Shown: piece by piece, positions 28,521 through 59,899 of the stretch
How positions within the stretch are numbered: the first letter of the stretch is position 1
How the letters are laid out: the number at the start of each line of letters is the position of its first letter
Assembly (NCBI GenBank): GCA_036480375.1
Contig: JAZGGI010000038.1
Coordinates: 1-63,757 of the forward strand
DNA: 63,757 nt
Source: Candidatus Zixiibacteriota bacterium
GTDB taxonomy: Bacteria > Zixibacteria > MSB-5A5 > GN15 > JAAZOE01
Direction of reading: 5' to 3'
Position numbers and translations under genes: made by a program
Notes under the pieces: model-generated
What the model was told of the DNA's origin: nothing
What the model saw: only the letters and a program-made list of their open reading frames with translations
Databases searched by the model: none

Positions 28521-28553
28521 ATTATTTCAGCCTTCCTGAATAAACTTCAAATT

Positions 28554-29363: not shown

Positions 29364-29384
29364 GTTAAATCCTCTTTGCAATAT

Positions 29385-31238
29385 TTATTTATTATCCAGA
29401 GCTTTTTCCGGATAAGCGTCAAGTTCTGTCATCCAACTCTTCAAGGAGTTAATTCTTTGCGAATTTTCTTCCGGTAGCACAAACGGACTGCGACCGCGGC
29501 CGTCAAGAATAATGCCAACCACGCCGCCGTGCAATTCTGTTTCCAGTTTTTGACCGCGTCCACGACCAAGATCGAGATGCTTCAACGGCTCCAAAGAGGC
29601 TTTAACTTTTAAAGGCAGGCCATCCTCCCCGAGGCCGACTTTGAGCAGTTTCATCTCGCCAAATTCGAGTTTGCCCGACACGGTTCCGTCGGGAAGATCA
29701 ATCTTATAATTCATGACGTCTCCGCCTTTTTTAACTTCGCCGGTCGGAGCCACGCAACTGCCCAGATGAATCAAACAATCTTTCTCAAAGACTTCGGTGG
29801 CTGCCTGAGGATGCAGTGTTGAAAGGACGCCAAGCTGGGGCATCATAAAGATGGAATCGACGGCAAGGCGGGTTACACCTTCCGGCTGGAAAGCGTCAAT
29901 CAGCATCATGGCCGATTGCTGGCGGCGCGGGGCGTGAGACATAACGCCGCCGGAACCGATTAACATATCCAGCGTCATCATATTGACAATTGACGAACCG
30001 GAACTATCCTGCTCAAAAGCGTCAGCGATGGTTCTTTGTTTCTGGACGCCTTTCAAAACCGTCGCAAAACTTTTATGCTGAATAAAAGCTAATCGCAACG
30101 CTTCCTTTGCGACCGCTTGCTCGAAAACCAATTCTTCCATTGATTGCGGAATTGTTGTCGGGCGGATCATCTTATTTTTAACTCGGTTGCGCAGATCGCG
30201 TTCATCCATGTCGAATGGAACCCAGCGCATAACATTCGGCAAAGTCGCCTCAGCGAAGACATTTGAAATCGAATAACTCATTCCCAAATTGGCCGAAACC
30301 GTCCGGTTAAAGACTCCTTCCCCGCCGTCGGGACGAAAAACAGAAAAAACATCGGTCGTGGCGCCGCCGATATCGACTCCAACCGCTTCCATATTACCCA
30401 GATCGGCGATAGTTTTTATAATCAATCCCACCGCTCCCGGCGTCGGCATAATCGGAGCATCGGCCCATTTCATCAGCTTTGAATAACCCGGAGCCTGAGC
30501 CATGACATGCTCCATAAATAAATCATGAATTTTTTCGCGGGCCGGATGAAGATTTTCGCGCTCCAGAACCGGGCGAAGATTTTCAACGATGCCCAAATCG
30601 ACTTTATTTTCCAACGTGTCTTTGATGGCCCCGCGGGCTTCGATATTTCCAGCGAATATAACGGGGAGATTATATCCCGAGCCCAGACGCGGTTTGGGGT
30701 CGGCCGCGGAGATCAATTCGGCGATTTCCACTACATGCGAGGTGGTTCCGCCATCAATACCTCCCGATAACAAAATCATATCGGGGCGTAGATGACGAAT
30801 TCTTTCAATTTGCTGATGGGGACGACGCTTATCGTTGGATGCGATAACATCCATAACAATAGCGCCCGCGCCCAAAGCCGCGCGTTCGGCCGACTCGGCC
30901 GTCATAGAACGGACTACGCCAGCGACCATCATCTGCAAACCGCCTCCGGCCGAAGATGTTGAAATATAAATATCGCATCCTCGATCGCCGTCAGCCGGTG
31001 AGATGATTTTATCGTTTTCATCAAGTAAAGTTTTATTGGTTAACTCACCCACTTCGGCTACGGCATTAAGAACTCCCATAGTAACGTCCTCAAAAGGAGC
31101 TTCGACAGTCGTTGGCGCTTCGCCGCGGGCTAAAAGGCGAAACTCGCCTTCTCGTTTTTCTATCAGGATTGCTTTGGTAGTTGTCGAACCGCAATCGGTG
31201 GCTAATATCGTATTAATATTTTCCAGATTCTCAAGCAT
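29385..31238 (-). CDS. GlmL/MutL-family actin-like ATPase
   Basis: The 617-residue protein belongs to the GlmL family of the actin/Hsp70 ATPase fold. Phosphate loop 1 is ILATDCGSTTTKAILIEK near residue 11 and phosphate loop 2 is GVDIGGATTDVFSV near residue 285; DMILLSGGIDGGTTSHV is another family block. In Clostridium, GlmL (MutL) is encoded between the two subunits of B12-dependent glutamate mutase. No mutase gene is present here, and the C-terminus extends roughly 150 residues past the usual core (FGEMKLLKVGLGEDGLPLKV and onward). It leads a three-gene operon with a membrane-anchored protein. A mutase role is therefore unlikely. Confidence 0.85.
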   Translation of the reverse strand: MLENLENINTILATDCGSTTTKAILIEKREGEFRLLARGEAPTTVEAPFEDVTMGVLNAVAEVGELTNKTLLDENDKIISPADGDRGCDIYISTSSAGGGLQMMVAGVVRSMTAESAERAALGAGAIVMDVIASNDKRRPHQQIERIRHLRPDMILLSGGIDGGTTSHVVEIAELISAADPKPRLGSGYNLPVIFAGNIEARGAIKDTLENKVDLGIVENLRPVLERENLHPAREKIHDLFMEHVMAQAPGYSKLMKWADAPIMPTPGAVGLIIKTIADLGNMEAVGVDIGGATTDVFSVFRPDGGEGVFNRTVSANLGMSYSISNVFAEATLPNVMRWVPFDMDERDLRNRVKNKMIRPTTIPQSMEELVFEQAVAKEALRLAFIQHKSFATVLKGVQKQRTIADAFEQDSSGSSIVNMMTLDMLIGSGGVMSHAPRRQQSAMMLIDAFQPEGVTRLAVDSIFMMPQLGVLSTLHPQAATEVFEKDCLIHLGSCVAPTGEVKKGGDVMNYKIDLPDGTVSGKLEFGEMKLLKVGLGEDGLPLKVKASLEPLKHLDLGRGRGQKLETELHGGVVGIILDGRGRSPFVLPEENSQRINSLKSWMTELDAYPEKALDNK

Positions 31239-44115: not shown

Positions 44116-47022
44116 TTATTTTTTCTTTTTGATTCCCGTTTTCTTAGCCGCCGCCTTCTTCAAAGCCGGTTTTTTCGCGCCGCCCTTGATTGTTTTAATC
44201 TTGCTCCTGGCGGTTTTCTTCCTGGAAGCAACTTTTGCGGCAGGTTTCTTTTTGGCCGGAGCTTTTGCCGTGGCCGTTTTCTTTGCCGCCGACTTTTTGG
44301 CTGCTTTCTTTTTACCCGTTGGTTTGGCCAGCGTATCCTTATCTCTCAGGGTCGCCTGAGCAGCTACCAGTCGAGCAATCGGGACTCTGAAAGGAGAACA
44401 GGAAACATAGTCGAGTCCGACTTCATGAAAGAACTGAATCGAGGCCGGGTCGCCTCCGTGCTCACCGCAGATACCGATTTTCAATTCGGGATTGACACCG
44501 CGGCCTTTCTCGAATCCCATCTTCACCAGCTGGCCGACACCGATCGTATCCAATGATACAAACGGATCGACAGGCAATATGCCTTTCTCAACGTAATAAT
44601 TGAGGAACTTACCGGCATCATCTCGAGAGAATCCCATTGACATCTGTGTCAAATCATTGGTTCCGAATGAGAAGAATTGCGCTTCTTCCGCGATTTCATC
44701 AGCGGTTAAAGCCGCTCGCGGAATTTCAATCATTGTTCCAACCAGATAGTTAAGCTTGGATTTCTTACGACTGGTGATTTCGAGAGCGATGCGTTCCACG
44801 ACTTCCTTCTGATTCTTGAATTCATTGATATGACCAATCAACGGAATCATGATTTCCGGGTAGACTTTTTTGCCTTTCTTGGTCAATTCATTAGCCGCTT
44901 CAAGAATCGCTCGGACCTGCATTTCTGTGATCTCAGGATAAACGATACCCAATCGGCAGCCGCGATGACCCAGCATAGGATTCATTTCCCGAAGCTCATC
45001 TATCCGATCCAGCATCTTTTCGATCTTTTCCAGTTTCTCCTCATATTCCTCGTCGGCCTTATCGAGCATTCCAATGCGTGCCTCGACATCTTCCCGACTC
45101 GGAAGGAATTCATGCAATGGCGGATCAAGCGTTCTGATAGTTACCGGATAACCCTGCATGGCCGCAAAGATCTTCTTGAAATCGTCTTTCTGAAATGGAA
45201 GCAGCTTATCAAGGGCGGCCTGCCGCTCTTCGGTGGTCTCGGCAAGAATCATTTCCTGCACGATCGGCAAACGCTCCTCGGAGAAAAACATATGTTCGGT
45301 GCGGCAAAGGCCGATCCCCTCGGCGCCAAATTTAATAGCCTTAACAGAATCAGCCGGCGTATCGGCGTTTGTCCGAACGCCCAATTTCCGATACTTATCG
45401 GCCCATTCCATCAGTTCGGCAAATTCGCCCGATAATTCCGGTTCGATCGTGGACACTTCGCCGATGATTACTTCACCGGTCGAGCCGTTGATGGTGATGA
45501 CTTCGCCTTCTTTTATGATAAGGCGACCAATATGAAATCGCTTTTTGGCTTCGTCAACACGAATCTTTTCGCAACCGGCCACGCACGGTTTACCCATACC
45601 GCGCGCTACAACGGCGGCATGTGATGTCATACCGCCCCGACTGGTCAAAATTCCGGCGGCGGCGTTCATGCCTTCGATATCATCCGGGTTGGTTTCCTGT
45701 CTGACAAGAATACATTTTTTCTTGGTTGAAACATTGACCGCATCCTCGGCAGTAAAGACAACGAAACCAGAACCAGCACCCGGAGAAGCCGCCAAACCGG
45801 TAGCAACTGAAGTATATTTCACCTTGGGATCCAGACGAGGATGCAAAAGATGATCCAACTGAGTCGGCTCGATGCGCATCAAGGCTTCCTCTTCGGATAT
45901 CAAACCTTCTTTGACCATGTCGGTCGCAATTTTAAGGGCTGCCTGAATCGTACGCTTACCGGCTCGGGTCTGAAGCATAAATAGTTTGCCTTCCTGAATG
46001 GTAAACTCAAAATCCTGAACATCGCGATAATGTGCTTCAAGACGATCCGTGATTTCTTTCAATTGTTTATAAACATTCGGCATGTCCGCTTTTAGCTGAC
46101 TAATTGGTGATGGAGTACGAATACCGGCCACAACATCTTCACCCTGGGCATTAAGCAGATACTCACCATAAAAAACTTTTTTGCCGCTGCCCGGATCGCG
46201 GGTAAATCCAACACCGGTACCGGAAGTATTTCCCATATTTCCATAAACCATAACCTGCACGTTTACGGCGGTCCCCAGATTCGATGGAATATTATTCAGA
46301 CGGCGGTAGCTAATCGCCCGGGGATTATTCCAGGAACGAAAAACCGCGTCGCGCGACAGCACCAGTTGTTTATAAGGATCCTCGGGAAAGGGCTCTCCGG
46401 TTTTCTTCAATATGATTTTCTTAAATCTCTTGACAATATCCTGAAGGTCTTTCACCTGCAGCGAACTATCCTGCTTGATCCGTTTGTCTTTTTTCTTCCT
46501 GGTGATTACTCCCTCAAAGACATCTTTATCAATACCAAGAACCACATTTCCAAACATCGACATGAAGCGCCGATAATTATCATAACCAAAACGCTCATCA
46601 CCGGTCTTGGCTATAAAACCCTTCATGGTTTCCTCGTTTAATCCCAGATTCAAAACCGTATCCATCATGCCCGGCATTGAGAATTTGGCTCCCGAACGGA
46701 CCGATACCAAAAGTGGATTTTTGGGATCGCCAAATTTGGCTCCCATTAGTTTCTCGACTTTGGCCATGTATAATTTCATTTCCTTTTCAAATTCAGAAGG
46801 CAGGTTCATATTATTTTCATAATAGGCCAGACAGGCTTCGGTTGTAATTGTAAATCCCGGCGGGACAGGAATTTTAATATTGGTCATTTCGGCCAGGCCG
46901 GCACCTTTTCCGCCGAGGATATCTTTCATATCTCCCTTACCCTCAGCCTTGCCGCCGCCAAAGAAATAGATAAATTTAGGTTTAGTCTTACTGGCCTTTT
47001 TTGTCTGTATTGTCTTCGCCAT
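44116..47022 (-). CDS. ppdK: Pyruvate, phosphate dikinase with H1-like C-terminal tail
   Basis: The enzyme interconverts pyruvate, ATP and phosphate with PEP, AMP and pyrophosphate. The N-terminal ATP-grasp domain (YFFGGGKAEGKGDMKDILGG, MPGMMDTVLNLGLNEETMKG), the phosphohistidine domain with GGMTSHAAVVARGMGKPCVA (catalytic His) and the C-terminal PEP/pyruvate barrel (ICGEHGGDPASIQFFHEVGL, active-site Cys) are all present. The core ends near residue 895. About 72 more residues are almost only Lys and Ala (KKKAAKKSAAKK, KKAAAKKTGIKKKK), as in histone H1-like proteins; normal PPDK has no such tail. It is monocistronic with a terminator 20 bp downstream. Confidence 0.95.
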   Translation of the reverse strand: MAKTIQTKKASKTKPKFIYFFGGGKAEGKGDMKDILGGKGAGLAEMTNIKIPVPPGFTITTEACLAYYENNMNLPSEFEKEMKLYMAKVEKLMGAKFGDPKNPLLVSVRSGAKFSMPGMMDTVLNLGLNEETMKGFIAKTGDERFGYDNYRRFMSMFGNVVLGIDKDVFEGVITRKKKDKRIKQDSSLQVKDLQDIVKRFKKIILKKTGEPFPEDPYKQLVLSRDAVFRSWNNPRAISYRRLNNIPSNLGTAVNVQVMVYGNMGNTSGTGVGFTRDPGSGKKVFYGEYLLNAQGEDVVAGIRTPSPISQLKADMPNVYKQLKEITDRLEAHYRDVQDFEFTIQEGKLFMLQTRAGKRTIQAALKIATDMVKEGLISEEEALMRIEPTQLDHLLHPRLDPKVKYTSVATGLAASPGAGSGFVVFTAEDAVNVSTKKKCILVRQETNPDDIEGMNAAAGILTSRGGMTSHAAVVARGMGKPCVAGCEKIRVDEAKKRFHIGRLIIKEGEVITINGSTGEVIIGEVSTIEPELSGEFAELMEWADKYRKLGVRTNADTPADSVKAIKFGAEGIGLCRTEHMFFSEERLPIVQEMILAETTEERQAALDKLLPFQKDDFKKIFAAMQGYPVTIRTLDPPLHEFLPSREDVEARIGMLDKADEEYEEKLEKIEKMLDRIDELREMNPMLGHRGCRLGIVYPEITEMQVRAILEAANELTKKGKKVYPEIMIPLIGHINEFKNQKEVVERIALEITSRKKSKLNYLVGTMIEIPRAALTADEIAEEAQFFSFGTNDLTQMSMGFSRDDAGKFLNYYVEKGILPVDPFVSLDTIGVGQLVKMGFEKGRGVNPELKIGICGEHGGDPASIQFFHEVGLDYVSCSPFRVPIARLVAAQATLRDKDTLAKPTGKKKAAKKSAAKKTATAKAPAKKKPAAKVASRKKTARSKIKTIKGGAKKPALKKAAAKKTGIKKKK

Positions 47023-47298: not shown

Positions 47299-47604
47299 TT
47301 ACATTGTAAAAAGCCGTTCACCGGAGATAATTTTCTCCAGCATCTTAACAGTCTTTTCTACCGGTGAATTCATTAAATCACAGGTGTTAAAGGTCTGGCG
47401 GCTTGCCTCGCGAGGACAGTCAAAATTGGCTTTGCCACGCCCCCCTCTTTTCTTCTTATGGGTCAAATTGTACAACCGCTGATATTCCTTAGCCTTCTCC
47501 TTATGCATCTGATAATAGCGGCGCTGATACTCCCTGCGGGCTTCAGCCGTTGATAATTTACCCTTCATTGTTTTTGTGGTAGAAGAATCAGTCTTCCGTG
47601 CCAT
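47299..47604 (-). CDS. Small basic hypothetical protein
   Basis: This 101-residue protein is rich in Lys, Arg, Tyr and Gln (STAEARREYQRRYYQMHKEK, AKEYQRLYNLTHKKKRGG). The EYxRRYYxxHKEKxKEYxR pattern resembles the short basic helical segment seen in some phage and HNH-linked small proteins. A nucleic-acid-binding role is only suggested by charge. It lies alone between ppdK and the triplicated operon. The start is ATG at 47604; an AAGTGAGG-like site is 10 bases upstream. Confidence 0.6.
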   Translation of the reverse strand: MARKTDSSTTKTMKGKLSTAEARREYQRRYYQMHKEKAKEYQRLYNLTHKKKRGGRGKANFDCPREASRQTFNTCDLMNSPVEKTVKMLEKIISGERLFTM

Positions 47605-48101: not shown

Positions 48102-48881
48102 CTATGCCGGCGCCTGTGATGATTTCTTTTGCATGTGGCGAATGATCTCAAGAATAATTAACAATACCAATATCAGGGTCGTTACCCAGACAACGGTTGT
48201 CATGCCTCCTCCGCCTTCGAATCCGGCCGATACCCAGTCACGAATATATTGTACTCTTTGGATAAATAGTGAAATACGTGCCATAACTGTATATCCGAAT
48301 GATGCGCCAAAGCCTATCATTAAAATATAAATTCCGAATTTGGCGACACCTCCGAAGGTACCCTTATGAGCCACTGAGAAAAAGAAGTAAAATAATCCCG
48401 TAACGACTCCGAGGATAATCACAACATCTTCAAATCCTACCCAAAATCCCTGGGCGAAATGTGTCTTGATATCAAAAACAATATTAACAGTATCGGCCAA
48501 TTGACGACTAACCCTGTTTTGCATTTCCGTCGGGATAGCGACACCAGTGGCAATACCGATATAAAAAGCAATCGGGTAGCGAGAAATCCAGGCTTTCTTT
48601 TTGGAGAAACGAAACCACATAAGTAATCCGAGGATTCCCGGAAATATGTACCACCATTGCCCGCCCCAGATCTGCCACCAGGGTTGACCAACCCAGATTT
48701 TATCAAATAGGTTTGGTATTAGATTATTATATACCAGTAGCATCGAAAAATAACCGGCTGATACACCGACAAATAAACTCTCGGAAAATTTATAAAACGG
48801 ATTGTCTCTATAAAGGAATGAAAAAGTGCTTAAAGTGAGACAGACACCGAGAGTAGTCCAAAGATAGGTTCCCCAATCCAT
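48102..48881 (-). CDS. Module 1, subunit A: polytopic membrane protein
   Basis: The 259-residue protein has about seven membrane helices. It shares with its two paralogues (51638 and 55260) the N-terminal block YRDNPFYKFSESLFVGVSAG and the C-terminal block AHKGTFGGVAKFGIYILMIG followed by FGASFGYTVMARISLFIQR. No transporter or enzyme family is recognised. A strong AAAGGAGGG site for its ATG lies within the end of subunit B1, with TGATG overlap. It is the last gene of the operon; its C-terminal tail is longer and Gly-rich compared with the paralogues. Confidence 0.85.
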   Translation of the reverse strand: MDWGTYLWTTLGVCLTLSTFSFLYRDNPFYKFSESLFVGVSAGYFSMLLVYNNLIPNLFDKIWVGQPWWQIWGGQWWYIFPGILGLLMWFRFSKKKAWISRYPIAFYIGIATGVAIPTEMQNRVSRQLADTVNIVFDIKTHFAQGFWVGFEDVVIILGVVTGLFYFFFSVAHKGTFGGVAKFGIYILMIGFGASFGYTVMARISLFIQRVQYIRDWVSAGFEGGGGMTTVVWVTTLILVLLIILEIIRHMQKKSSQAPA

Positions 48882-49738
48882 CAGCGCATCCCTCCTTTCC
48901 TCTTAGAAACAAAGTAGCCAATATTTCCAATCAGAATAAAGATAATGATTGTAATATGGGCCCAAACTTGAACCCGCATGGCCTCCATTGCCGGCCCCGG
49001 TTTGTCTCCCGGTTCACGGAGCAGCGTTTCATATTCCGCGGCGCCGAGCATACCTCCCATAAGACCGAATAACTGGCCTGACCTGAGATAAGGATAATAA
49101 TCAGCCGCGGATACGCCGGTCAGACCGGCCGCAAGTCTGGCATTATATCTTCCGTTGGCATAAGCAAGCCAAAAATCAATGCCGCTGGTTCCCGTGATTA
49201 AAATAATACCTTCAACATTATCGTAATTGATAATGCCATCCATCATAGGAATACTGTCCGTGGACGTATTATAATAATCACTGGGGAAGGATAACCTGTA
49301 ATTTTGCCCCATGCTCAGGATAACGATTCCAGGATATGCCTTATATCCCAGGAAAACAACATCCTCACCATAAATAAGCTCTCGCCCGTATTTTACTCGA
49401 ACCGAATCCATAATTTCAAGCATGGCTGATTCGGCCATTCCCGGACCATTTGGAGATAATGCAGTAATTATTATTTTGACCCCTTTGGCCAAAGTCTGTT
49501 CCATGATAGCGTAAGTCATGGGATGCAGTTCGGCCATGGAACCGGGATCATAATCCATCGCGAAATGAATATACTGATCTTCCTCAAGCCCCTCAACAAA
49601 GTTAAAGATCGAACGAACCTCTGGATTAACTCTGAGAGGTGATTCGAATTTAACCAGAATAGTAATGACAACAACAGCGGCAAGAATCAGATAAATCCAT
49701 CTTCTATCGAGTTTTGCTATTTTTTCAAAAATGTTCAT
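48881..49738 (-). CDS. Module 1, subunit B: membrane-anchored alpha/beta domain protein
   Basis: The 285-residue protein has one N-terminal membrane helix (WIYLILAAVVVITILVKF), an alpha/beta domain of about 190 residues and one C-terminal helix (VWAHITIIIFILIGNIGYFV). The motif MDYDPGSMAELHPM corresponds to SFDYDP in the other copies, and LRSGQLFGLMGGMLGAAEYE is shared by all three. The fold looks Rossmann-like by strand/helix order. It lacks the extra N-terminal helices found in copies 2 and 3. No known family is assigned. Confidence 0.85.
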   Translation of the reverse strand: MNIFEKIAKLDRRWIYLILAAVVVITILVKFESPLRVNPEVRSIFNFVEGLEEDQYIHFAMDYDPGSMAELHPMTYAIMEQTLAKGVKIIITALSPNGPGMAESAMLEIMDSVRVKYGRELIYGEDVVFLGYKAYPGIVILSMGQNYRLSFPSDYYNTSTDSIPMMDGIINYDNVEGIILITGTSGIDFWLAYANGRYNARLAAGLTGVSAADYYPYLRSGQLFGLMGGMLGAAEYETLLREPGDKPGPAMEAMRVQVWAHITIIIFILIGNIGYFVSKRKGGMR

Positions 49739-49751
49739 GCGTCATTCTCCC

Positions 49752-50369
49752 TCAATCACTACCCATATAGGTTCGTTCGATACCAAGGATAACCTTGAGA
49801 GCGGTTCCAACCATGCCCAGACCAATTCCGATAATGATCGCTCGTTTGGCGGCCATATTGGGCACGTTTAGAATCCAGGCGGCCAGATCACCGATCGGTT
49901 CGCCCAAAAATCCCAAAAATGGGTTAAATCTCAGCATAATAATTATGGCGGAAAAAAGTAAAACTGAAGCCAGAAGTGAGTGTGCCCGGAAAGCCCTGAA
50001 TGCCGCCGAGGCGATAAAGAACGCCAAAAGCGAAAACATCGTAGCGTGAAGAGGCATTATTATATAGTTGAAAAAATGCCGCCACATATATGATTCCAAT
50101 CCGCCAGTAAGAGCGAAGATCGGCATACTTATTAATCCGGCTAAGATAATTATCGCATACTGCCAGTTTTCCGCTCTTCTTTTTATTTTATTAGCTGAAA
50201 CTCTTACAATTGACCATATTCCCAGAGCCAGCGCGAAAATACCGATAATGATTGTCCATTCCATCACAAATTCATAAACGAATTCCGACTTGCTATGAGG
50301 AACAAAAAATTGTACCGCCATAAACAGGCCGGTAACAAAGACAATCATTAGAGGAATTTCTCTTTTCAT
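49752..50369 (-). CDS. Module 1, subunit C: six-helix membrane protein
   Basis: The 205-residue protein has about six membrane helices. Shared blocks with its paralogues at 53353 and 56884 are MKREIPLMIVFVTG at the start, TMFSLLAFFIASAAFRAFRA in the middle and KRAIIIGIGLGMVGTALKVI with a final ILGIERTYMGSD. An AGGAGG site lies nine bases before the ATG. The function is unknown; its invariant AFRAFRA and ERTYMGSD motifs face the cytoplasm in a simple topology prediction. Confidence 0.85.
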   Translation of the reverse strand: MKREIPLMIVFVTGLFMAVQFFVPHSKSEFVYEFVMEWTIIIGIFALALGIWSIVRVSANKIKRRAENWQYAIIILAGLISMPIFALTGGLESYMWRHFFNYIIMPLHATMFSLLAFFIASAAFRAFRAHSLLASVLLFSAIIIMLRFNPFLGFLGEPIGDLAAWILNVPNMAAKRAIIIGIGLGMVGTALKVILGIERTYMGSD

Positions 50370-50382
50370 AATTCGTATCCTC

Positions 50383-51597
50383 CTAATTACCGACCGTAAA
50401 AAGGTTCATGAAGCCGTCCCAGTTGAATATAGCCGCGATGACTCCCAGTAATATGCTGATAATAACCAGAGCTTTGCAGTAGTCCTGACCTTTCAGAGAA
50501 CCGAGCAAAATCGGTTCGCGACCGAGATACGCCGAAGCGGCATATAGCTCCTCACCGATAAGAGTATAATCGCAGGCAACGACAAAAAACGGAATCTGGG
50601 TCACTTCATCGGTACCGGCAATTTGAATTGACCCCGTTGCCGATCCGGTTTCGGCCAGGATGAGAGATTCGGCGTAAAACTTGCCGAGATAAAAATTCGT
50701 CGCTGGCTTTTCTCGAATCATGATTCCGTTGACACCGCCAACGTATGCGAACTGCTGATTAGTAACGAAGAAAACATCGTCTTCATGGTAAGCATCGGGG
50801 CGTCCGGCATCATAGTATGCTGTCTTAACCGTTTCCTGCGCGACCGTCATAACGATGGGATCATAACAGGGAACAATCAGAGACGTCTGATATTCGGCGA
50901 CTTTTTTGGCCACACGGCTCAGGATGGTAAACGACGCGATAGTCGCGACGTCAGCGGCAGTACCCAATCCCAAGACATAGAGAATCGGTTTGCCCATTTC
51001 CGTAGCACGACCAATCGCCTCGTCAACAGCATCAATTCCCGCCAGTGGGCGTACATATAATTCCGCGCCGGCCCGTGCTTTCTGGATAAAAAATAACGTA
51101 AAGACTGTAAACAGAATTACAGCGGCGGCAACAGGCGTTTTACCCCAGTTGTAAAGCTGGCCCACGGCCCGTACCGGTCCAAAAACTTCAGATTCAGCAT
51201 TACCGTTTTTATGCAGGGTGACTACTTTATACCAAAAATCTTTTTCTCTTGGGAAATAGTCCTGATTATCGGATTCTTTGACACCGCTATCCCGCTCCGA
51301 CATCGTTCCCCGCGGGATAGAATCTTTTCGAATCTCATAAGGTCCATCCGGTGATTCCGCCCGCAAAATACGATAACCAGCAAAATCTAAATTTCCCTCA
51401 ACATCATCGGCCGACAAATCCCATTGCAACGATATTGAATGACCATTGTCATTGGGAGTATCAAACGCGCTTAAATTAGTGGGCGGCGCCGGAGGTACGG
51501 ATTCGACAACGCCATCGGGCTCCGTTTCATCCTGACCCCATCCGGCGATAGGAATTACCAGAAGCACCATGATAAACAGTAAAAACTTGTTTTTCAT
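50383..51597 (-). CDS. Module 1, subunit D: FN3 and DUF6754-like membrane protein
   Basis: The start is ATG at 51597 or 51600 behind GGAGTT. A signal peptide (KFLLFIMVLLVIPIAGWG) is followed by a fibronectin-III-like domain (about residues 38 to 140, PPAPPTNLSAFDTPN and AGYRILRAESPDGPYE), a membrane helix (TPVAAAVILFTVFTLFFIQ) and a cytoplasmic domain of about 210 residues that matches DUF6754 as I remember it. The last is a C-terminal helix. Blocks shared with copies 2 and 3 include GRATEMGKPILYV, FYAESLILAETGSATGSIQI and CDYTLIGEELYAASAYLG. The cytoplasmic domain has no ATPase motif. Confidence 0.87.
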   Translation of the reverse strand: MKNKFLLFIMVLLVIPIAGWGQDETEPDGVVESVPPAPPTNLSAFDTPNDNGHSISLQWDLSADDVEGNLDFAGYRILRAESPDGPYEIRKDSIPRGTMSERDSGVKESDNQDYFPREKDFWYKVVTLHKNGNAESEVFGPVRAVGQLYNWGKTPVAAAVILFTVFTLFFIQKARAGAELYVRPLAGIDAVDEAIGRATEMGKPILYVLGLGTAADVATIASFTILSRVAKKVAEYQTSLIVPCYDPIVMTVAQETVKTAYYDAGRPDAYHEDDVFFVTNQQFAYVGGVNGIMIREKPATNFYLGKFYAESLILAETGSATGSIQIAGTDEVTQIPFFVVACDYTLIGEELYAASAYLGREPILLGSLKGQDYCKALVIISILLGVIAAIFNWDGFMNLFTVGN

Positions 51598-51637
51598 CAT
51601 AACTCCACTCATTATCTATCTTATCTTAATTTGTCTT

Positions 51638-52450
51638 CTATTGAATCAGTCCCAGCCAGTCATCGAGCAAAAACGTCAGGCGTCCGACCAGTAGCGAAAT
51701 TCGTCCCATCACCGTATATCCGAAAGAAGCGCCAAAGGTTACCATCAGAATCCATATCCCAAAACGAGAACCAACACCAAAAGCCCCTTTATGCTCTTTG
51801 CTGAAGTAGAAATATATTATTCCACAGAATACACCCACGAAAATCACGAGATTGCTTAGCATTCCCACTAATTGACCGGACGCCGAGAGAGAAAGATTTG
51901 AGAAGAAATGACCAAAGCCCTGCCACTGGACAAACAATGGCATAAAGGTCGATGAAATCTGTGATATAAAATCCGATCTTAAAAATCGCGGCAAATTCAA
52001 ACCGGCCGTAGTGCCAACGATAAAGGCCAGGGCCCATCTTGATATCCAGCCGCCTTTGGGAGACAATCGCATCAGCAGGATAATTCCCAGCGCCGGCGGA
52101 ATTAAATAATGCGGATGAAATCCCGCGTACGGAACCTCAAACCAATTACTCAATGTCTCCGATACGCGCGGAAATAAATTCCCTACCAGAGTCGTCCAGA
52201 AACCGAGACACATCCAATAAGCGGCCGAAACGCCAACATAAAGATGCTCCGCGAATTTATAAAAGGGATTGTCCTTATAAAGAAATGACATCACTGCCAG
52301 TGTCAAAAATGCCGCAAAGGTTACCCAGAATGCCGACGCCAACGATTCAAATGTCGATGTCCCCTCCGGTACGCCGGACATCCTGGAAATCAGGCTGATA
52401 ATAAATAATACCGCCACAACCGCGACTACAATAACAGGTCCTTTACGCAT
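51638..52450 (-). CDS. Module 2, subunit A: polytopic membrane protein
   Basis: The 270-residue protein is a paralogue of the 48102 and 55260 products. It has an extra N-terminal membrane segment (MRKGPVIVVAVVAVLFIISL) before the common block YKDNPFYKFAEHLYVGVSAA. The common end is EHKGAFGVGSRFGIWILMVT and FGASFGYTVMGRISLLVGR. It overlaps the stop of subunit B2 by eight bases. Copy 2 begins here in the reverse direction. Confidence 0.85.
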   Translation of the reverse strand: MRKGPVIVVAVVAVLFIISLISRMSGVPEGTSTFESLASAFWVTFAAFLTLAVMSFLYKDNPFYKFAEHLYVGVSAAYWMCLGFWTTLVGNLFPRVSETLSNWFEVPYAGFHPHYLIPPALGIILLMRLSPKGGWISRWALAFIVGTTAGLNLPRFLRSDFISQISSTFMPLFVQWQGFGHFFSNLSLSASGQLVGMLSNLVIFVGVFCGIIYFYFSKEHKGAFGVGSRFGIWILMVTFGASFGYTVMGRISLLVGRLTFLLDDWLGLIQ

Positions 52451-53360
52451 CGATATTTTTCCTTCGGCTGCGGAAGTATGAAATATTTCCTATTATGATA
52501 AAAGCCATGACAACTATATGCGCCATCGTCTGCGGCCCCATCATTTTCAAAGCGGTCGCTTCGGAATCCTGAAATTGAGGATACCTTTGTCTTAACTCCG
52601 ATTCATATTCGGCGGCTCCCTTAACTCCTCCCAAAAGTCCGATCGCTTGTTTGGGATAATAAGGATATATCTGCGGAGCCACAACTGCCGCTAATCCCGG
52701 CGCTACCGGAACATTTCCGGGATCACCGATAAATAATATCCATTCTTTTGGCCCCGGAAAACCGCCTCCGATAGGTAAAATCAAATCCATGTTGGTCGCT
52801 GACTTAACACCTTCAAAGATTGGCAATTCAGATAATTCGGTATTATTGTCATCGGTCGGATACATTTTCTGGAAATCGGTAACGATGACATTCAACACGC
52901 CGACTCCACCGGCCTTAAAACTGAGCGACGTATAATCGGTGCCGTAAACCGCATCGGGAAATTCCGGTTTTAAAACTTCCTCAATGCTCTCGATCATAAG
53001 AGCATGTCCGGTAGCCCAGAGCGTCATCAAATATAGTTTATGGCCTTTGGCCATACAATGCCTGACAAACGAGTTCGCCATCGGGCCTACTTCAGGTTTC
53101 ATCGCCGGATCATAATCAAAAGACAGCAAAACTCTTGATCCCGGCGGCATATTTTCTATTTTATCAAAAACAGCCCTGACGATTGGTGTGGGACTTTCCT
53201 TAAATTCAATATTGAAAAGGATCGCGAAGGCGACGGATAAAAATATAAACAGGAAAATTACACGTCGGTCTATATCTCGACCCTTAAGGGAATAAATCAG
53301 GATGATCAATAAACCAATCAGAACTCCGACTATGGATATTATCGAGCCGATATTAGTCAT
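52443..53360 (-). CDS. Module 2, subunit B: membrane-anchored alpha/beta domain protein
   Basis: I chose ATG at 53360 with GGGAG five bases upstream; a GTG at 53366 is less likely. The 305-residue protein has two N-terminal helices (ISIVGVLIGLLIILIYSL and VIFLFIFLSVAFAILFNI), the alpha/beta domain with LLSFDYDPAMKPEVGPM, and a C-terminal helix ending in basic residues. The block PKQAIGLLGGVKGAAEYESE corresponds to GQLxGLMGGMxGAAE in the others. It overlaps the subunit C2 stop by eight bases. Confidence 0.85.
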   Translation of the reverse strand: MTNIGSIISIVGVLIGLLIILIYSLKGRDIDRRVIFLFIFLSVAFAILFNIEFKESPTPIVRAVFDKIENMPPGSRVLLSFDYDPAMKPEVGPMANSFVRHCMAKGHKLYLMTLWATGHALMIESIEEVLKPEFPDAVYGTDYTSLSFKAGGVGVLNVIVTDFQKMYPTDDNNTELSELPIFEGVKSATNMDLILPIGGGFPGPKEWILFIGDPGNVPVAPGLAAVVAPQIYPYYPKQAIGLLGGVKGAAEYESELRQRYPQFQDSEATALKMMGPQTMAHIVVMAFIIIGNISYFRSRRKNIDA

Positions 53361-54027
53361 TATCACTCCCGAGATAGGTTCGTTCCATTCCTAATATCAA
53401 CCTGAGTGACATCGACACTACGCCCAGTCCAACACCGATTAAGATCGCCCTCTGCCCGGCCAAATTTGGACCGTTCATGATCCAAACGGCCAAATTTGGA
53501 ATTTGCAGAACGGAAAACGACTCGGGAATCCAGCCGGTAAGAGCCATCCCCAGGGGTGTTCGTCCCAATAGAATTATAAATGCCGCAATGAGAAGTATTG
53601 TGGCTTCTCGATTCTTGGCGCGAAATGCCCGATAAGAGGCCGATGCGACAAAAAACGCCAGGAGAGAGTACATTGTAGCCGATAGCGGAGCAATAACATT
53701 ATCAAAAATAATTTTTAATACCGTTCCTTCGGCAATAACCGAAGTGGCGATGTTTTCGCCGCCGACTTTTAGCATGCCGAAAACTAAAGTCAGGAAAAAA
53801 CCGGTCAGGGTTACGATTGAAAACCCCCAGTCGGGGCGTTTACGATACACTTTTATTATATGAATGCGAACCAAATTACCGCCGCCGAGAAAAAACGCGA
53901 AAACCGCTATTATATCAAAGAAAAGTGAGAAATCTTCGCCTATGGTCTGGGCCATAGGGAAAAAGACCGAAAGGATCAAAACAATTCCAACGACAGATGT
54001 TATAATGACCGGTATTATGCGTTTCAT
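53353..54027 (-). CDS. Module 2, subunit C: six-helix membrane protein
   Basis: This 224-residue paralogue of the 49752 and 56884 products starts MKRIIPVIITSVVG and carries ATMYSLLAFFVASASYRAFR in the middle and GQRAILIGVGLGVVSMSLRL plus ILGMERTYLGSD near the end. It has about six hydrophobic helices. The spacing to subunit D2 is 18 bp. Confidence 0.85.
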   Translation of the reverse strand: MKRIIPVIITSVVGIVLILSVFFPMAQTIGEDFSLFFDIIAVFAFFLGGGNLVRIHIIKVYRKRPDWGFSIVTLTGFFLTLVFGMLKVGGENIATSVIAEGTVLKIIFDNVIAPLSATMYSLLAFFVASASYRAFRAKNREATILLIAAFIILLGRTPLGMALTGWIPESFSVLQIPNLAVWIMNGPNLAGQRAILIGVGLGVVSMSLRLILGMERTYLGSDND

Positions 54028-54045
54028 TTGTTAATACTTACTCCG

Positions 54046-55260
54046 CTAATTAGTGGCAAATATCGCGTCTAACACATCCAGAAGCCATTGCATTGATTCA
54101 AGATCCCAGGCGTTAGCTAAAGTAATCGCCATTGTCCCCAGTAATATGCCGCACATTGCTACAATTTTTCCAATATCCTGACCTTTTAAAGATCCTAATT
54201 GCTTGGGATCTCCGGATAGATAGGCCGATGCGGCGAATAATTCCTCGCCAATTAGAGTATAATCGCAAGCTGCGACAAAAAACGGCAACTGGGCCGGACG
54301 AGCGGTTCCGGCGATTTGAATCGCTCCAATACTATTCCCGGTTTCAGCCAGAATCAAAGATTCGGCAAAAAAGGCTCCCAGATATAAACAGGTGGCCGGC
54401 TTTTCCCGAACCATAATTCCATTAACCGCAGCGACATAACCAAACTGTTCATCAGTAATATACTGAACCATGTCGTCGCTATAACCGTCGGGACGACCGG
54501 CAGACGTATACGCCTCTTTGATAGTCTCTCTTGCCGAAGTCATCACCAGCGAGCGAGAGACAGGCATCCTGATTTTGCTATCGTAGTCGGCAACAACTCG
54601 GGCAACTCGCCCCAAAATAGTTATCCCCGCCAACGTCTGGACATCATCCATATCCTGAATGCCGGCTATGAACAGAATCGGGCGTCCCATTTCGGTCGCG
54701 CGACCAACCGCCTCTTCTATAGCTTCCAAACCACCGATTTTTCTGATAAACAGTTTACGGCCGCTTTTAACTGACATAATAAAACCGATGACCGCCCCGC
54801 ATACGACAATGGCCATAATAAAAATATTCAATTGATTAAAATTGAAAAATTCCCACGCCGCCGCGGCGGGTTGTGACGCTTCCGAAAAAACTTCACCGGC
54901 AGAATTATACGCGGCTACTTTATATTGATAAAGGATATCGTTTTCTAATTCCTCATCGGCATAAGATGTTTGGCCGGGTATTAAATCGGAAACATGCTCA
55001 AAATCAGTGTTCGCTCGTGAACGATAGAGTTTATAACCGAGGATATTGGCCGGATCATCCGGGGATTTAACCCAGGTTATGTTTAATATTCCTCCGGCGT
55101 CATATACAGCGTTTTGGGCAGATACATTAGTCGCAGGCATTGGCAAAGCAACAGCCGTTGAATCAGAGGACTCATCAACAACCGTCACTTCTTCGGCGAA
55201 AATCGCGGAAGAGGTAAAGATGAATAATACAATTGCCAGTGCGATTAAGATTTTATTCAT
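54046..55260 (-). CDS. Module 2, subunit D: FN3 and DUF6754-like membrane protein
   Basis: I start at ATG 55260, which overlaps the stop of subunit A3 (TAATG) and opens a signal peptide (NKILIALAIVLFIFTSSAIF). The 404-residue protein has one FN3-like domain (NVSAQNAVYDAGGILNITWV through ILGYKLYRSRANTDFEHVSD), a membrane helix (NIFIMAIVVCGAVIGFIMSV), the DUF6754-like domain and a final helix. GRATEMGRPILFIAGIQDMD and TGNSIGAIQIAGTARPAQLP are nearly identical to copy 3, showing that copies 2 and 3 are closer to each other than to copy 1. Confidence 0.87.
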   Translation of the reverse strand: MNKILIALAIVLFIFTSSAIFAEEVTVVDESSDSTAVALPMPATNVSAQNAVYDAGGILNITWVKSPDDPANILGYKLYRSRANTDFEHVSDLIPGQTSYADEELENDILYQYKVAAYNSAGEVFSEASQPAAAAWEFFNFNQLNIFIMAIVVCGAVIGFIMSVKSGRKLFIRKIGGLEAIEEAVGRATEMGRPILFIAGIQDMDDVQTLAGITILGRVARVVADYDSKIRMPVSRSLVMTSARETIKEAYTSAGRPDGYSDDMVQYITDEQFGYVAAVNGIMVREKPATCLYLGAFFAESLILAETGNSIGAIQIAGTARPAQLPFFVAACDYTLIGEELFAASAYLSGDPKQLGSLKGQDIGKIVAMCGILLGTMAITLANAWDLESMQWLLDVLDAIFATN

Positions 55261-55889
55261 TACGGAAGCATTCCAAGCCATCTATCAAATAGAAAATCAA
55301 GTCTTCCCAACATCAACGACATACGGCTCATAACCGTATATCCGAATGAAGCGCCGAAGGTGACCATCAAAAACCAGATACCGACTTTCGCGGTCACTCC
55401 AAACAATCCTTTATGCTCTTTACTGAAGAAAAAGTAAACCAGGCCGGAACAGACTCCGACAATAATTATCAAATTGTTTATAAAGAGACCTGCCCCGCCG
55501 CCAAAAAGAGGTACAATTGTTGCTGAAACCTGCTGCATAGCGTTAGAGACAAAGTACATCATCATATATAAACCGGCCGTCGCTCCGACTATGAAGGCAA
55601 GGGGCCAGCGGGCTACCCAGCCAATTTTGTCAAAAAGGCGGGCCAGCATAAGGACTCCCAGAATAAGGCCAAACCAGGGATAAATCAAAGGATCTGCCGC
55701 AAAAATGGTTTGTTCAAGAAATTTCTTATACATCATATCCCAAAAATAGACGGCAAACCAATAACCCGCCGATGCGCCAACAAATATCGCCTCACTAACT
55801 TTGTAGAATACGTTGTCCTTATATAGGAAAGAGATTATGCCCAAAGTCAAAAGCGCAGCCACCCAAACACCAAATATCTCCCAGCTCAT
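55260..55889 (-). CDS. Module 3, subunit A: polytopic membrane protein
   Basis: At 209 residues this is the shortest of the three A subunits. It has YKDNVFYKVSEAIFVGASAG near the start and EHKGLFGVTAKVGIWFLMVT with FGASFGYTVMSRMSLMLGR at the end. It overlaps subunit B3 by four bases (ATGA). The minimal length suggests that this is close to the conserved core of the family. Confidence 0.85.
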   Translation of the reverse strand: MSWEIFGVWVAALLTLGIISFLYKDNVFYKVSEAIFVGASAGYWFAVYFWDMMYKKFLEQTIFAADPLIYPWFGLILGVLMLARLFDKIGWVARWPLAFIVGATAGLYMMMYFVSNAMQQVSATIVPLFGGGAGLFINNLIIIVGVCSGLVYFFFSKEHKGLFGVTAKVGIWFLMVTFGASFGYTVMSRMSLMLGRLDFLFDRWLGMLP

Positions 55890-56884
55890 GACCTTTTCTC
55901 CTTCTTTTTCTTATCGCGAAGATAGGCAACATTACCAATTATTATAAAGCCGATCACCACGACATGCGCAAACGATTGAGACAATAAGAACGTAGTTGCC
56001 TTACCCGTATATTCGGTTAACAATTCAAATTCAGCCGCACCGGACATACCTCCCATTAATCCGACTAATTGGCCGGAATTGACATAAGGATAAGCCATTG
56101 GAGCCTGAACCGCCGTATTCCCGGCTCCCATTGTCAGATTAAACCGATCAACCGCCAATTGGACCCACTCAATCGTCCCCGGTTTTCCGGCTGAAAGATT
56201 GATCGAATAATCTATATTTGTAAAATTCGAGACGTTACGCACTAATGGAATCGAATCGTAGGCGTGTCCATTGATATCGCGAGGGAATGTTGCCCGAATC
56301 GATTCCCCCATGCGCAGAATAACGAATTCATTCCCGGATTGAAAACCGAGATTGCAATAATCAATACCATCAATTTTCTGTTCTCGCCAATCGGGGTTTT
56401 CTAAAAATGCAGCCTCAATCGCAAGCTGTGCCTGCTGCGGACCCATTGGCCATAACCCCATGATAATCAACTTCAGATCATGCTCGAAAGCATATTTCAT
56501 CAAGGATTCCGCCATCGGTTGTAATTCGGGCGCGGAAGGGGGATCATAATCAAAAGAGACCAGCACGGTCGAACCAGGCTGTAAGGCGGCAAGTCCATCA
56601 AAAACGCCCCGAACTTCATCTGAAACCTGAATGGGAAGGTCAAATTGCATAAAAAACGGCACAAGCAACGCAATTCCAATCAATAAAAATACTATCCGAC
56701 GTTGAACATATTTCCCCTGTAAAGTTCTGATAAGCATCAAAACAAAAATCAATACCATCACGATCATTATGATGTATGTGACCGTGGGCGAAAACTGAAT
56801 CGGTTCCTTTATTACAAAGTAACAGACAAGAAAAAAGATAGCGATCAGAACCGTTGCAATAATTTCTTTCATCCTGATATTCAT
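55886..56884 (-). CDS. Module 3, subunit B: membrane-anchored alpha/beta domain protein
   Basis: The 332-residue protein has three N-terminal hydrophobic segments (IIATVLIAIFFLVCYFVI, TYIIMIVMVLIFVLMLI, IVFLLIGIALLVPFF), the alpha/beta domain with VLVSFDYDPPSAPELQPM, the shared block VNSGQLVGLMGGMSGAAEFE, and a C-terminal helix (FAHVVVIGFIIIGNVAYL). It starts where subunit C3 stops. B subunits differ mainly by the number of leading helices. Confidence 0.85.
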   Translation of the reverse strand: MNIRMKEIIATVLIAIFFLVCYFVIKEPIQFSPTVTYIIMIVMVLIFVLMLIRTLQGKYVQRRIVFLLIGIALLVPFFMQFDLPIQVSDEVRGVFDGLAALQPGSTVLVSFDYDPPSAPELQPMAESLMKYAFEHDLKLIIMGLWPMGPQQAQLAIEAAFLENPDWREQKIDGIDYCNLGFQSGNEFVILRMGESIRATFPRDINGHAYDSIPLVRNVSNFTNIDYSINLSAGKPGTIEWVQLAVDRFNLTMGAGNTAVQAPMAYPYVNSGQLVGLMGGMSGAAEFELLTEYTGKATTFLLSQSFAHVVVIGFIIIGNVAYLRDKKKKEKRS

Positions 56885-57531
56885 CAGTCACCCCCCAGAT
56901 ACGATCGTTCAAGCCCGATAATAATCCGCAGAGAGTTGGAAATCAATCCGAGGGCAATACCTATCATAATTGCCCGCTGTCCGGCGGTATTAAGAACATT
57001 CATAGTCCAGTTAGCCCATTGAGACATTTGATATTCATAAGGAAGCCATGACGTAATAAGATCCCCGACCGGAACCCGTCCAAGCATCACAAAAAACGCG
57101 GCCAAAAGTAATAAAGTCGCTTCAAAATTACGAGCCCTGAAAGCCCGATAAGATGCTGAAGCCACAAAAAACGCCAGCAGAGCAAACATTGTTGATGACA
57201 ACGGGGTATAAACATTGATATAAAGCCAGTCAAAAGCCGTACCGGAATTTCGGAATTCTATCCCGCCCGCAAATCCGGCAATAGCGACAATCAAAAACGA
57301 GATTATAATTATGACGGAGTAAGGCCAATCAGGACGCTTTCGGAAAATTTTTATAGTCGAAATCTTAAGCAGATTCAGCGCACCCAACCAGATTGCAAAA
57401 GCGGCCACAATTAAGAACCAATCGGTAAACCATTTCTCAAACTCATAAAATGGCCAATGCGGTATGAAATATGATATAACATACGCAACACCGACTACAA
57501 AGGTTATTATCAGGGGTATTTCTCGTCTCAT
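56884..57531 (-). CDS. Module 3, subunit C: six-helix membrane protein
   Basis: I use ATG at 57531 rather than the adjacent TTG at 57534; AAGGGA lies upstream. The 215-residue product starts MRREIPLIITFVVG and has STMFALLAFFVASASYRAFR and GQRAIMIGIALGLISNSLRI with a final IIGLERSYLGGD. About six helices. Its closest relative in the window is copy 2. Confidence 0.85.
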   Translation of the reverse strand: MRREIPLIITFVVGVAYVISYFIPHWPFYEFEKWFTDWFLIVAAFAIWLGALNLLKISTIKIFRKRPDWPYSVIIIISFLIVAIAGFAGGIEFRNSGTAFDWLYINVYTPLSSTMFALLAFFVASASYRAFRARNFEATLLLLAAFFVMLGRVPVGDLITSWLPYEYQMSQWANWTMNVLNTAGQRAIMIGIALGLISNSLRIIIGLERSYLGGD

Positions 57532-57558
57532 CAAAAATCCCTTATATTTTCTATTTCG

Positions 57559-58818
57559 TTAATGGGCGGCAAACCACCCTGAGATATTCCATTCCGGATT
57601 AAGCGCCAACAGGATCACACCAACTATAATCGCTGTCAGACATAGCACCTTGCCCACATCCTGACCTTTAAGCGATCCCAGCAGTTTTGGCTCACCGGTC
57701 AGATATGCCGATGCCGCAAAAAGCTCCTCACCTATCAAAGTGTAGTCGCAGGCAGCAACAAAAAACGGTAATTGTGCCGGCATAGCCGTACCCGCTATTT
57801 GAATAGCGCCAATACTATTGCCGGTTTCAGCCATAATAAGCGATTCCGCGAAGAAAGTGCCGATCAGGAAAATAGTCGCCGGTTTTTCACGCACAAAAAG
57901 CCCGTCAATAGCGGCAGCATATCCAAACTGATCGTCGGTAAGATATCTGACCTGATCTTCAATAAAGGAATCCGGGCGACCGGCTTTGCTGTATGCTTCT
58001 TTGACGACCTCTTTGGCCGTGACCATAACCATAGAACGGCAAACCGGTACGTCGATACGGGTATCATTTTCGGCGGCAATCGTCGCAACCCTTCCCAAAA
58101 TTGACATACTGGCAAGGGTTTGAACATCATCCATATCATGAATGCCCGGAACATAATATATTGAACGCCCCATTTCTGTGGCACGCCCGACAGCATTCTC
58201 CACTTCTTCAATACCGGCAATTTTTCGGATATAAAATTTCTTTCCGCTTTTGGCCGCAAAGATAAAATAGATGATTGAGGATGACAGCAATATCGTACCG
58301 ATGAAAATTACCAGCCGGCTCATATTGAACCATTGAGAAACAGATTTCACCGGACCGATCACCGCTGATTCACTCGCCGTTGTCCATAAAACGTTCCCAT
58401 CTGATTTGACAAAATTCACGGCAACGATCTTGTAATAATATTCCGTAGCAGTAGGCGCCTGAAAATCAGTAAACGTAGTATTCCCTTGCGGAGTACTGCC
58501 AAGCTCGGAGAATTCTCCATCCGGCGACGTACTGCGTAATATCTTGTATTCCATGACATTGCCGCCTTCATAGTCATCCGGCGACTTTTCCCAGTTGACT
58601 ACGATGGCATCGCCCTTATCATTTTCATTGTCATAGGCATTAATTTCAAAAGCGGGTTGCGGTGTCCGTTCCCTCAAAAACAGTGAATCATATGCCGGTT
58701 GCGTGAGAGTATCTGTAACTGATTCAGTTGATTCGGATTGCGCTAAAATTTTGGGTGAAAAAAGTAAGATTGAGAACAGAACCGCATATAAAGAAAAAAC
58801 ACTAAGTCGTTTAAGCAT
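57559..58818 (-). CDS. Module 3, subunit D: FN3 and DUF6754-like membrane protein
   Basis: This is the first gene of the twelve-gene operon. AAGGAA lies before ATG at 58818. The 419-residue protein has a signal peptide (VFSLYAVLFSILLFSPKILA), an FN3-like domain (DDYEGGNVMEYKILRS, then FTDFQAPTATEYYYKIVAVN), a membrane helix (LVIFIGTILLSSSIIYFIFA), the DUF6754-like domain with GRATEMGRSIYYVPGIHDMD, TGNSIGAIQIAGTAMPAQLP and ACDYTLIGEELFAASAYLTG, and a final helix. Confidence 0.87.
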   Translation of the reverse strand: MLKRLSVFSLYAVLFSILLFSPKILAQSESTESVTDTLTQPAYDSLFLRERTPQPAFEINAYDNENDKGDAIVVNWEKSPDDYEGGNVMEYKILRSTSPDGEFSELGSTPQGNTTFTDFQAPTATEYYYKIVAVNFVKSDGNVLWTTASESAVIGPVKSVSQWFNMSRLVIFIGTILLSSSIIYFIFAAKSGKKFYIRKIAGIEEVENAVGRATEMGRSIYYVPGIHDMDDVQTLASMSILGRVATIAAENDTRIDVPVCRSMVMVTAKEVVKEAYSKAGRPDSFIEDQVRYLTDDQFGYAAAIDGLFVREKPATIFLIGTFFAESLIMAETGNSIGAIQIAGTAMPAQLPFFVAACDYTLIGEELFAASAYLTGEPKLLGSLKGQDVGKVLCLTAIIVGVILLALNPEWNISGWFAAH

Positions 58819-59125: not shown

Positions 59126-59899
59126 TTATCTATAAACCTTTCCCTCAACGTTGGTAATATGACGGCTTCCCGATGAATCATCCTCGACGTCAACATCCTG
59201 AGTGACATCATCAATTCTGATATCGCCCGATCCGTCGCTGACGGTGACACTGCCGTCAACTCTTCGCACGCGAATATCTCCCGAGCCGTCATCAATTTCG
59301 ATGTCGCCCGTGACGACATTTATCCTGATATCCCCGGAACCATCGTCAAGGTCAATATCCCCGGTTATATCCTCCATCTCAATTTCACCCGAACCGTCAT
59401 TGATACGAATGTTGCCGCCAATATCAAAAAGACCAATCTCGCCGGAACCGTCTTCAATATCTACATCGCCGTTTACTTTTTGAATCGCGATTAATCCCGA
59501 ACCGTCTTCAATATCCAACTCCATTTCGATCGGTACCTGAATCGTTAAGTCAATTAAAGCGCGGGTGGCAATCCGTCTGAAAAATCCACCGCCGTCATAA
59601 TCAAAATGGCTGGTTAACTTCGCGTAATTACCTTTGTCTTCCAATTCCAAATCCATATAATCATCGATAAATTCATCAATATCTTCGTCGTCAATGCCCT
59701 TGATTACAATCCGAGCCTCGACTTCAATCGTTTTCAATCCTTCCACGCCTTTGATTTCAAGATATCCGGCTCCGCAATTAATGCGCAGACGTTCGATCTT
59801 ACTCGCGTCCAGAGACAGCGTTTGAGTATCTTTGTAAATGGCCAATGCGGGAACCGATAACAGAATCAGAACGATGACTAAAAATGAAATTGCCCTCAT
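59126..59899 (-). CDS. Putative adhesin (DUF4097-like) with 18-residue beta-helix repeats
   Basis: The 257-residue protein has a signal peptide (MRAISFLVIVLILLSVPALA), an N-terminal beta-rich domain, and from residue 132 to the end seven tandem 18-residue repeats of the form DGSGDIRIxxVxGDIxIx. One turn per repeat suits a right-handed beta-helix of the DUF4097/toastrack type. Periplasmic or surface location is inferred. It ends 307 bp before the first gene of the membrane operon, on the same strand. Confidence 0.8.
   Translation of the reverse strand: MRAISFLVIVLILLSVPALAIYKDTQTLSLDASKIERLRINCGAGYLEIKGVEGLKTIEVEARIVIKGIDDEDIDEFIDDYMDLELEDKGNYAKLTSHFDYDGGGFFRRIATRALIDLTIQVPIEMELDIEDGSGLIAIQKVNGDVDIEDGSGEIGLFDIGGNIRINDGSGEIEMEDITGDIDLDDGSGDIRINVVTGDIEIDDGSGDIRVRRVDGSVTVSDGSGDIRIDDVTQDVDVEDDSSGSRHITNVEGKVYR
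59129..59506 (-). repeat. 54-bp coding tandem repeat in the adhesin gene
   Basis: Seven units of 54 bp encode the 18-residue DGSG motif repeats. On the plus strand the recurring phrase is TCTCCCGAGCCGTC or similar (GAACCGTC with variants). The last unit is degenerate. Units differ at many third positions, so the array is old or under protein-level selection. Confidence 0.8.

Follow-up and report, generated by a model that had tools for sequence, protein, structure and literature searches.

Why does a bacterial genome hold the same four membrane-protein genes three times in succession, and what could the encoded proteins do together? This question is raised by contig JAZGGI010000038.1 of a Candidatus Zixiibacteriota bacterium (assembly GCA_036480375.1), analysed over positions 1-63,757 (the window). 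At positions 48102-58818, twelve minus-strand genes form, in transcription order, three consecutive D-C-B-A sets (modules 1, 2 and 3). The data support one system, made of a membrane module in several versions and a single-copy ATPase set, and they do so directly through the gene sets, the positive-inside topology, the predicted folds, the shared history of the subunits, and the co-occurrence and fusion of the partners. As to function, we give a probability of about 40% to a ligand-handling membrane complex served by this one ATPase set, whose modules would differ in specificity.

A threefold D-C-B-A array

The genes of the array are the following (TM, transmembrane segment; pLDDT, predicted local distance difference test).

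57559-58818, minus strand: D1 (module 1), signal peptide, FN3, TM, cytoplasmic DUF6754 alpha/beta domain and C-terminal TM; PF20539, 397.7 bits
56884-57534, minus strand: C1 (module 1), six TMs, N-in/C-in
55886-56884, minus strand: B1 (module 1), predicted periplasmic Rossmann-like domain between TM anchors, with extra N-terminal TMs
55260-55889, minus strand: A1 (module 1), six TMs, N-out/C-out by the positive-inside rule
54046-55281, minus strand: D2 (module 2), DUF6754 subunit; PF20539, 402.7 bits; model mean pLDDT 91
53353-54027, minus strand: C2 (module 2)
52443-53366, minus strand: B2 (module 2)
51638-52450, minus strand: A2 (module 2)
50383-51612, minus strand: D3 (module 3), DUF6754 subunit; PF20539, 399.7 bits
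49752-50369, minus strand: C3 (module 3)
48881-49738, minus strand: B3 (module 3), predicted six-stranded Rossmann-like domain; model mean pLDDT 95.6
48102-48881, minus strand: A3 (module 3)

Intergenic gaps in the array do not exceed 25 bp, and many genes overlap, by 1-22 bp. The list of open reading frames gives exactly the coordinates and the gene order of the minus-strand triplication which a first-pass annotation, made from the sequence alone, had described. Identity to the first copy is 45-51% for D, 39-51% for C, 36-38% for B and 40-52% for A. The sequence blocks which the same annotation had taken as diagnostic of each subunit are found in all three copies: GRATEMG and CDYTLIGEEL in D, DYDP and GAAE in B and FGASFGYTVM in A are invariant, and those of C (FRAFRA/YRAFRA and ER.Y.G) are kept in type only. 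In addition, another contig of the same genome carries a fourth D-C-B-A set, also complete, in which D lacks an FN3 domain.

Age and shared history of the modules

Trees and distances were calculated for 79 complete modules from 50 loci (those of named genomes, the window and its fourth set), and the D-C-B-A order is kept in all 79. For the modules of the window, the nearest relatives of each subunit hold the same position (1, 2 or 3) in related Zixibacteria; position 1, for example, goes with position 1 of locus L007, at 72-80% identity. No mixing between copies was seen among the nearest neighbours of any subunit of these three modules. Since the copies are positional orthologues across Zixibacteria, the duplication is ancient, as the first-pass annotation had proposed, and a recent one was ruled out by the phylum-wide orthology of each position and by the 36-52% identity between copies. 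The position-3 modules form one clan (support 0.993) that includes modules from a few other lineages; at depth, single modules of other phyla are interspersed among positions 1 and 2. Because the positions are shared in this way with other lineages, the duplications look older than the phylum, or else shared by transfer.

Furthermore, trees of A, B, C and D built separately had concordant topologies, and unrelated histories of the subunits were not found. The distance matrices of the subunits were correlated pairwise at 0.83-0.86 (maximum of 0.11 in 500 permutations), and strongly supported splits were also present in the concatenated tree for D (36/38), C (29/32), B (40/42) and A (35/36). From this concordance, the modules are inherited as units; taken alone, it is no proof of physical interaction. 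Such a history supports the earlier proposal of a heteromeric complex or of three parallel complexes.

Families, topology and predicted folds of the subunits

All D proteins match nearly the whole 257-residue profile of Pfam family PF20539 (DUF6754) at about 400 bits, the curated cut-off being 27. PF20539, however, is only a domain of unknown function, and no published description was found of A, B, C, the modules or the soluble partners. None of the A, B and C proteins tested gave a Pfam family above its curated cut-off, and A, B, C and D did not match the MotA/TolQ/ExbB, TolR/ExbD or TonB profiles. As had been stated from the sequence, the profile searches (hidden Markov models) place no subunit in a known transporter, secretion or respiratory family, and they do not distribute the subunits over separate known systems.

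Membrane topology was derived from positive-inside statistics over 88-107 homologues. B is N-in and C-in, with its alpha/beta domain outside in 99% and 85% of the sequences at its two membrane helices. D has its FN3 part outside, its DUF6754 domain inside (100% and 90% of the sequences) and its C-terminus outside. C is made of six helices, N-in/C-in; A has six helices as well, N-out/C-out, with a short N-terminus and a last helix left undecided by the statistics. This agrees with the cytoplasmic DUF6754 face and the extracytoplasmic FN3 and B alpha/beta faces that had been anticipated. The fn3 profile was matched by only one of the D copies, D2, at 24.1 bits, just below the cut-off of 25; the FN3 assignment of the first-pass annotation is borne out by the D2 model, in which residues 43-146 form a clear FN3 domain matching FN3 structures at Z 13-14.

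AlphaFold2 models were those of the single chains B3 (pLDDT 95.6) and D2 (pLDDT 91.2). In both, the first TM is followed by a helix, then by six strands with helices between them, and at the end by a further helix and a long membrane helix. According to these models, B and D would have a matching order of elements, a six-stranded Rossmann-like domain and then a membrane helix, with the domains facing opposite sides of the membrane. That B and D share an ancestor is no more than a suggestion, because the shared architecture rests on the predicted order of elements and the profile comparison of the two gave no sequence homology (alignments short and insignificant, probability under 8%). Similarly, no homology was detected when the profiles of A and C were compared.

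The B model aligns with Rossmann-type nucleotide-binding folds at Z 8-9.4 over about 145 residues. Its matches to the CODH/ACS epsilon subunit (Z 9.4, 145 residues, 3.2 Å) and to transhydrogenase domain III (Z about 8) are barely above background, unrelated models reaching 7-8. B differs from these folds in being periplasmic, membrane-anchored and only about 10% identical. Sequence searches of solved structures gave nothing useful for B and only FN3 for D. As a separate observation, B and A of locus L055 (15679-17394) lie in one frame of 571 amino acids, in which a Shine-Dalgarno-like stretch and an ATG precede the A part. This frame may come from a lost stop or a sequence error; it is perhaps no true fusion, since a fusion would clash with A being N-out.

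The domains on both membrane sides, together with the many paralogues, would also suit a membrane sensor or signalling complex, in which periplasmic B senses, A and C relay, cytoplasmic D reports, and the ATPase and P375 described below are the output. A weak match of C2 to 7TMR-DISM (E 0.0092, 16.4 bits, below the cut-off of 29) points in the same direction. However, no output domain (kinase, cyclase, helix-turn-helix or other) is present as a fusion or as a consistent neighbour, and a near-universal multi-copy presence in the phylum is unusual for a sensor; we consider this explanation distinctly improbable.

A single-copy set of soluble partners

Some 17 kb away from the array, at 27387-31238, the window has three further genes; the gene for P151, a small protein and third candidate soluble partner besides the ATPase and P375, is on another contig.

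29385-31238, minus strand: MutL/GlmL-like ASKHA ATPase, 617 amino acids, predicted soluble partner; PF13941, 432.7 bits; homologues precede D-C-B-A in many loci
28554-29381, minus strand: exported protein of 275 amino acids with a C-terminal TM, encoded between the genes of the ATPase and P375; 7 other loci have homologues
27387-28520, minus strand: P375 (375 residues), 51-70% identity across phyla; co-occurs with DUF6754

The order P151, MutL-like ATPase, P375, D, C, B, A recurs in loci from several phyla, and the same order is present in L113, a 7.4 Mb contig of Planctomycetota. In two loci of Neomarinimicrobiota (L076 and L084) the ATPase and P375 are one fused protein, just before D-C-B-A. 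Among Planctomycetota, each of the 14 genomes with P375 also has DUF6754, and P375 occurs in 0 of the 42 that lack DUF6754 (p = 5e-11); P151 was present in 14/17 genomes with DUF6754 against 1/42 without (p = 7e-10). Fifteen genomes with 1-6 modules have one copy each of P375 and P151. Since both stay single-copy despite up to six modules, one soluble set appears to be common to several membrane modules. Several Cloacimonadota have, in addition, a second and distant P375-like match inside a long reading frame, which in L108 is an ATPase relative beside D. The soluble partners, two of them in the window, had been missed by the first-pass annotation, as had the fourth module and the oppositely oriented architecture of B and D.

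The ATPase resembles the MutL/GlmL accessory proteins of adenosylcobalamin mutases (PF13941, NCBIfam GlmL) in its PF13941 match and in its ASKHA phosphate motifs, both of which are kept (DCGSTTT at 15, DIGGATT at 289). It differs from them by a C-terminal extension and by its pairing with P375, and its identification as GlmL was rejected, with 227.1 bits for a cut-off of 475 in the NCBIfam equivalog and 165 bits for a cut-off of 204 in the GlmL subfamily. No match was found for the ATPase in the sequence search of solved structures, and P375 gave weak ones only (RNA polymerase beta' and an SPT5 KOW domain, E 0.13-0.25). For the 275-amino-acid protein, one homologue gives a weak PsbP match (E 0.024). 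A defence system was also considered and rejected, as A3, B3, C3, D3, P375, the ATPase and P151 had no PADLOC match at E 0.01.

The accessory roles known for the family of this partner with cobalamin mutases could suggest a membrane-bound enzyme complex, with an active site in cytoplasmic D (for example for cofactor or lipid chemistry) and the GlmL-like ATPase as reactivating factor. The D domain is highly conserved across phyla; many of its polar residues (R, E, D, Q, T, K) do not vary, and CDYTLIGEEL is among its strongly conserved parts. But D matches no enzyme family outside DUF6754, the ATPase is below the GlmL cut-offs, and the periplasmic Rossmann-like domain of B is left unexplained. 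Such an enzyme is an unlikely explanation.

Module-specific positions and the ligand-handling reading

The reading as a ligand-handling complex draws on the positions that distinguish the modules. In Rossmann-like folds, the residues that follow the strands form the usual ligand edge. A position was called module-specific when it was fixed within, and different between, modules 1, 2 and 3, and the edge was defined as the 7 residues after each strand. For B and D together, 12 of the 25 module-specific positions were located at this edge, compared with 84 of 369 positions (p = 0.004). The enrichment was also observed at other thresholds (p = 0.0004-0.03) and was absent before strands. In the models, the differences between modules would thus be concentrated at the usual ligand edge of the B and D domains.

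Several points weigh against this reading. The enrichment test was devised after the models had been seen. For conservation in general, the ligand edge shows no enrichment in D (p = 1.0) and a weak one only in B (p = 0.10). In the fold search made with D, hits to FN3 took up the whole list, which has no bearing on the alpha/beta domain. Finally, the neighbouring genes vary with the module (MetK/AhcY, a sugar ABC transporter, glycine cleavage) and designate no single substrate class. In several families of the phylum (L005 4693-11447, L086, L088, L090, L091 and L093), the genes after module 4, the one whose D has no FN3, are those of a nucleotidyltransferase, MetK and AhcY. A more divergent module has an ABC exporter for neighbour and is oriented divergently from a sugar ABC transporter; these names were given by eye.

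Proton-motor genes near the modules

Genes of the TolQ/ExbB type were found, as a raw count, in 13 of 79 loci (1.17 Mb), and in L113 besides. They could belong to a trans-envelope machine for energy coupling or envelope organisation, in which D-C-B-A works with an adjacent TolQ/ExbB-TolR/ExbD proton motor, FN3 points toward the outer membrane and the ATPase set regulates assembly. The 13 loci are from Zixibacteria, WOR-3/Stahlbacteria and Fermentibacteria/Aegiribacteria, and in L113 (Planctomycetota) the motor gene lies beside P151-ATPase-P375-D-C-B-A. An order of D-C-B-A and then ExbB-ExbD-TonB recurs in WOR-3 and Fermentibacteria, often with a TonB-dependent receptor; in four WOR-3/Stahlbacteria loci (L035, L036, L039, L060), the genes after D-C-B-A encode a DUF4388 protein, two soluble proteins of no assigned family, two small membrane proteins and, lastly, ExbB-ExbD-ExbD-TonB. 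The D proteins of Cloacimonadota (930-1150 amino acids in L106, L107 and L108) would fit as well, with an extracytoplasmic region of some 700 residues and FN3-like repeats before DUF6754. However, most modules, including the three of the window, have no such motor next to them, and the motor genes of Zixibacteria lie beside P375, not D-C-B-A (L008, L017, L052). Proton-channel genes of Tol-Pal and TonB-ExbBD recur beside the system in several phyla; its subunits match none of the motor profiles named above. We regard a machine of this type as rather unlikely.

Proposed mechanism

In the preferred reading, that of a ligand-handling complex, D, C, B and A would form one inner-membrane complex, and the window would encode three parallel, long-separated versions of it. 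Each complex would have a pair of Rossmann-like domains, that of D cytoplasmic and that of B periplasmic, both ending in a membrane helix; the six-helix proteins C and A would join them, and the FN3 part of D would reach into the periplasm. Both domains may bind a small ligand, one on either side of the membrane, and A and C could couple these events or move the ligand, which would make the complex a ligand-handling transporter or a trans-membrane relay. The fold and the module-specific positions suggest that the modules differ in ligand. The single-copy cytosolic set (MutL/GlmL-like ASKHA ATPase, P375 and P151) would serve all modules; its probable role is that of a factor which uses ATP to assemble or activate them and docks on conserved cytoplasmic surfaces.

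It is possible, though far from assured, that these proteins make up a kind of energised membrane machine not described before, with a near-universal presence in Zixibacteria, Cloacimonadota and WOR-3. Such a machine would be built of two oppositely oriented halves (D/B, Rossmann-like domain and membrane helix; C/A, six helices with opposite topology), and a single-copy GlmL-like ATPase set would drive or maintain its substrate-specific modules. The literature search gave no paper on DUF6754 or on PF13941, and in the papers searched the D-C-B-A system is undescribed.

Other genes around the modules

Just upstream of the array, 59126-59899 encodes a DUF4097 'toastrack' protein (Pfam) with repeated DGSG motifs. 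A 968-amino-acid pyruvate phosphate dikinase-like protein is encoded at 44116-47022; its long C-terminal tail is lysine/alanine-rich and histone-H1-like, and homologues are found in 6 other loci, in several of them after the array. Between this gene and the array, 47299-47604 encodes a basic protein of 101 amino acids with homologues in 5 other loci. In L042 (13584-15454), NfeD-like, stomatin-like and CBS-domain genes, identified by eye, stand between two D-C-B-A modules.

Distribution and significance

DUF6754 was absent from the 14 named control genomes (0/14). It is patchy in Planctomycetota (17/59) and present in 5/5 genomes of a small group whose record carries the label Gemmatimonadetes. 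Record titles with DUF6754 also name Latescibacterota, Eisenbacteria, Fermentibacteria, Neomarinimicrobiota, Coatesbacteria and others, the labels of single metagenome-assembled genomes being fallible. In the phylum of the window, all 132 of 132 genomes carry the domain, mostly in 4-6 copies, and it was found in 39/40 Cloacimonadota and in 36/40 genomes of the phylum to which a WOR-3 record belongs; this near-universal presence suggests a core role. The question of that role is directly testable, because the modules have orthologous positions and defined soluble partners and are patchily distributed in Planctomycetota, some members of which are in culture. It appears that entire phyla of uncultured bacteria rely on this multi-gene membrane system.

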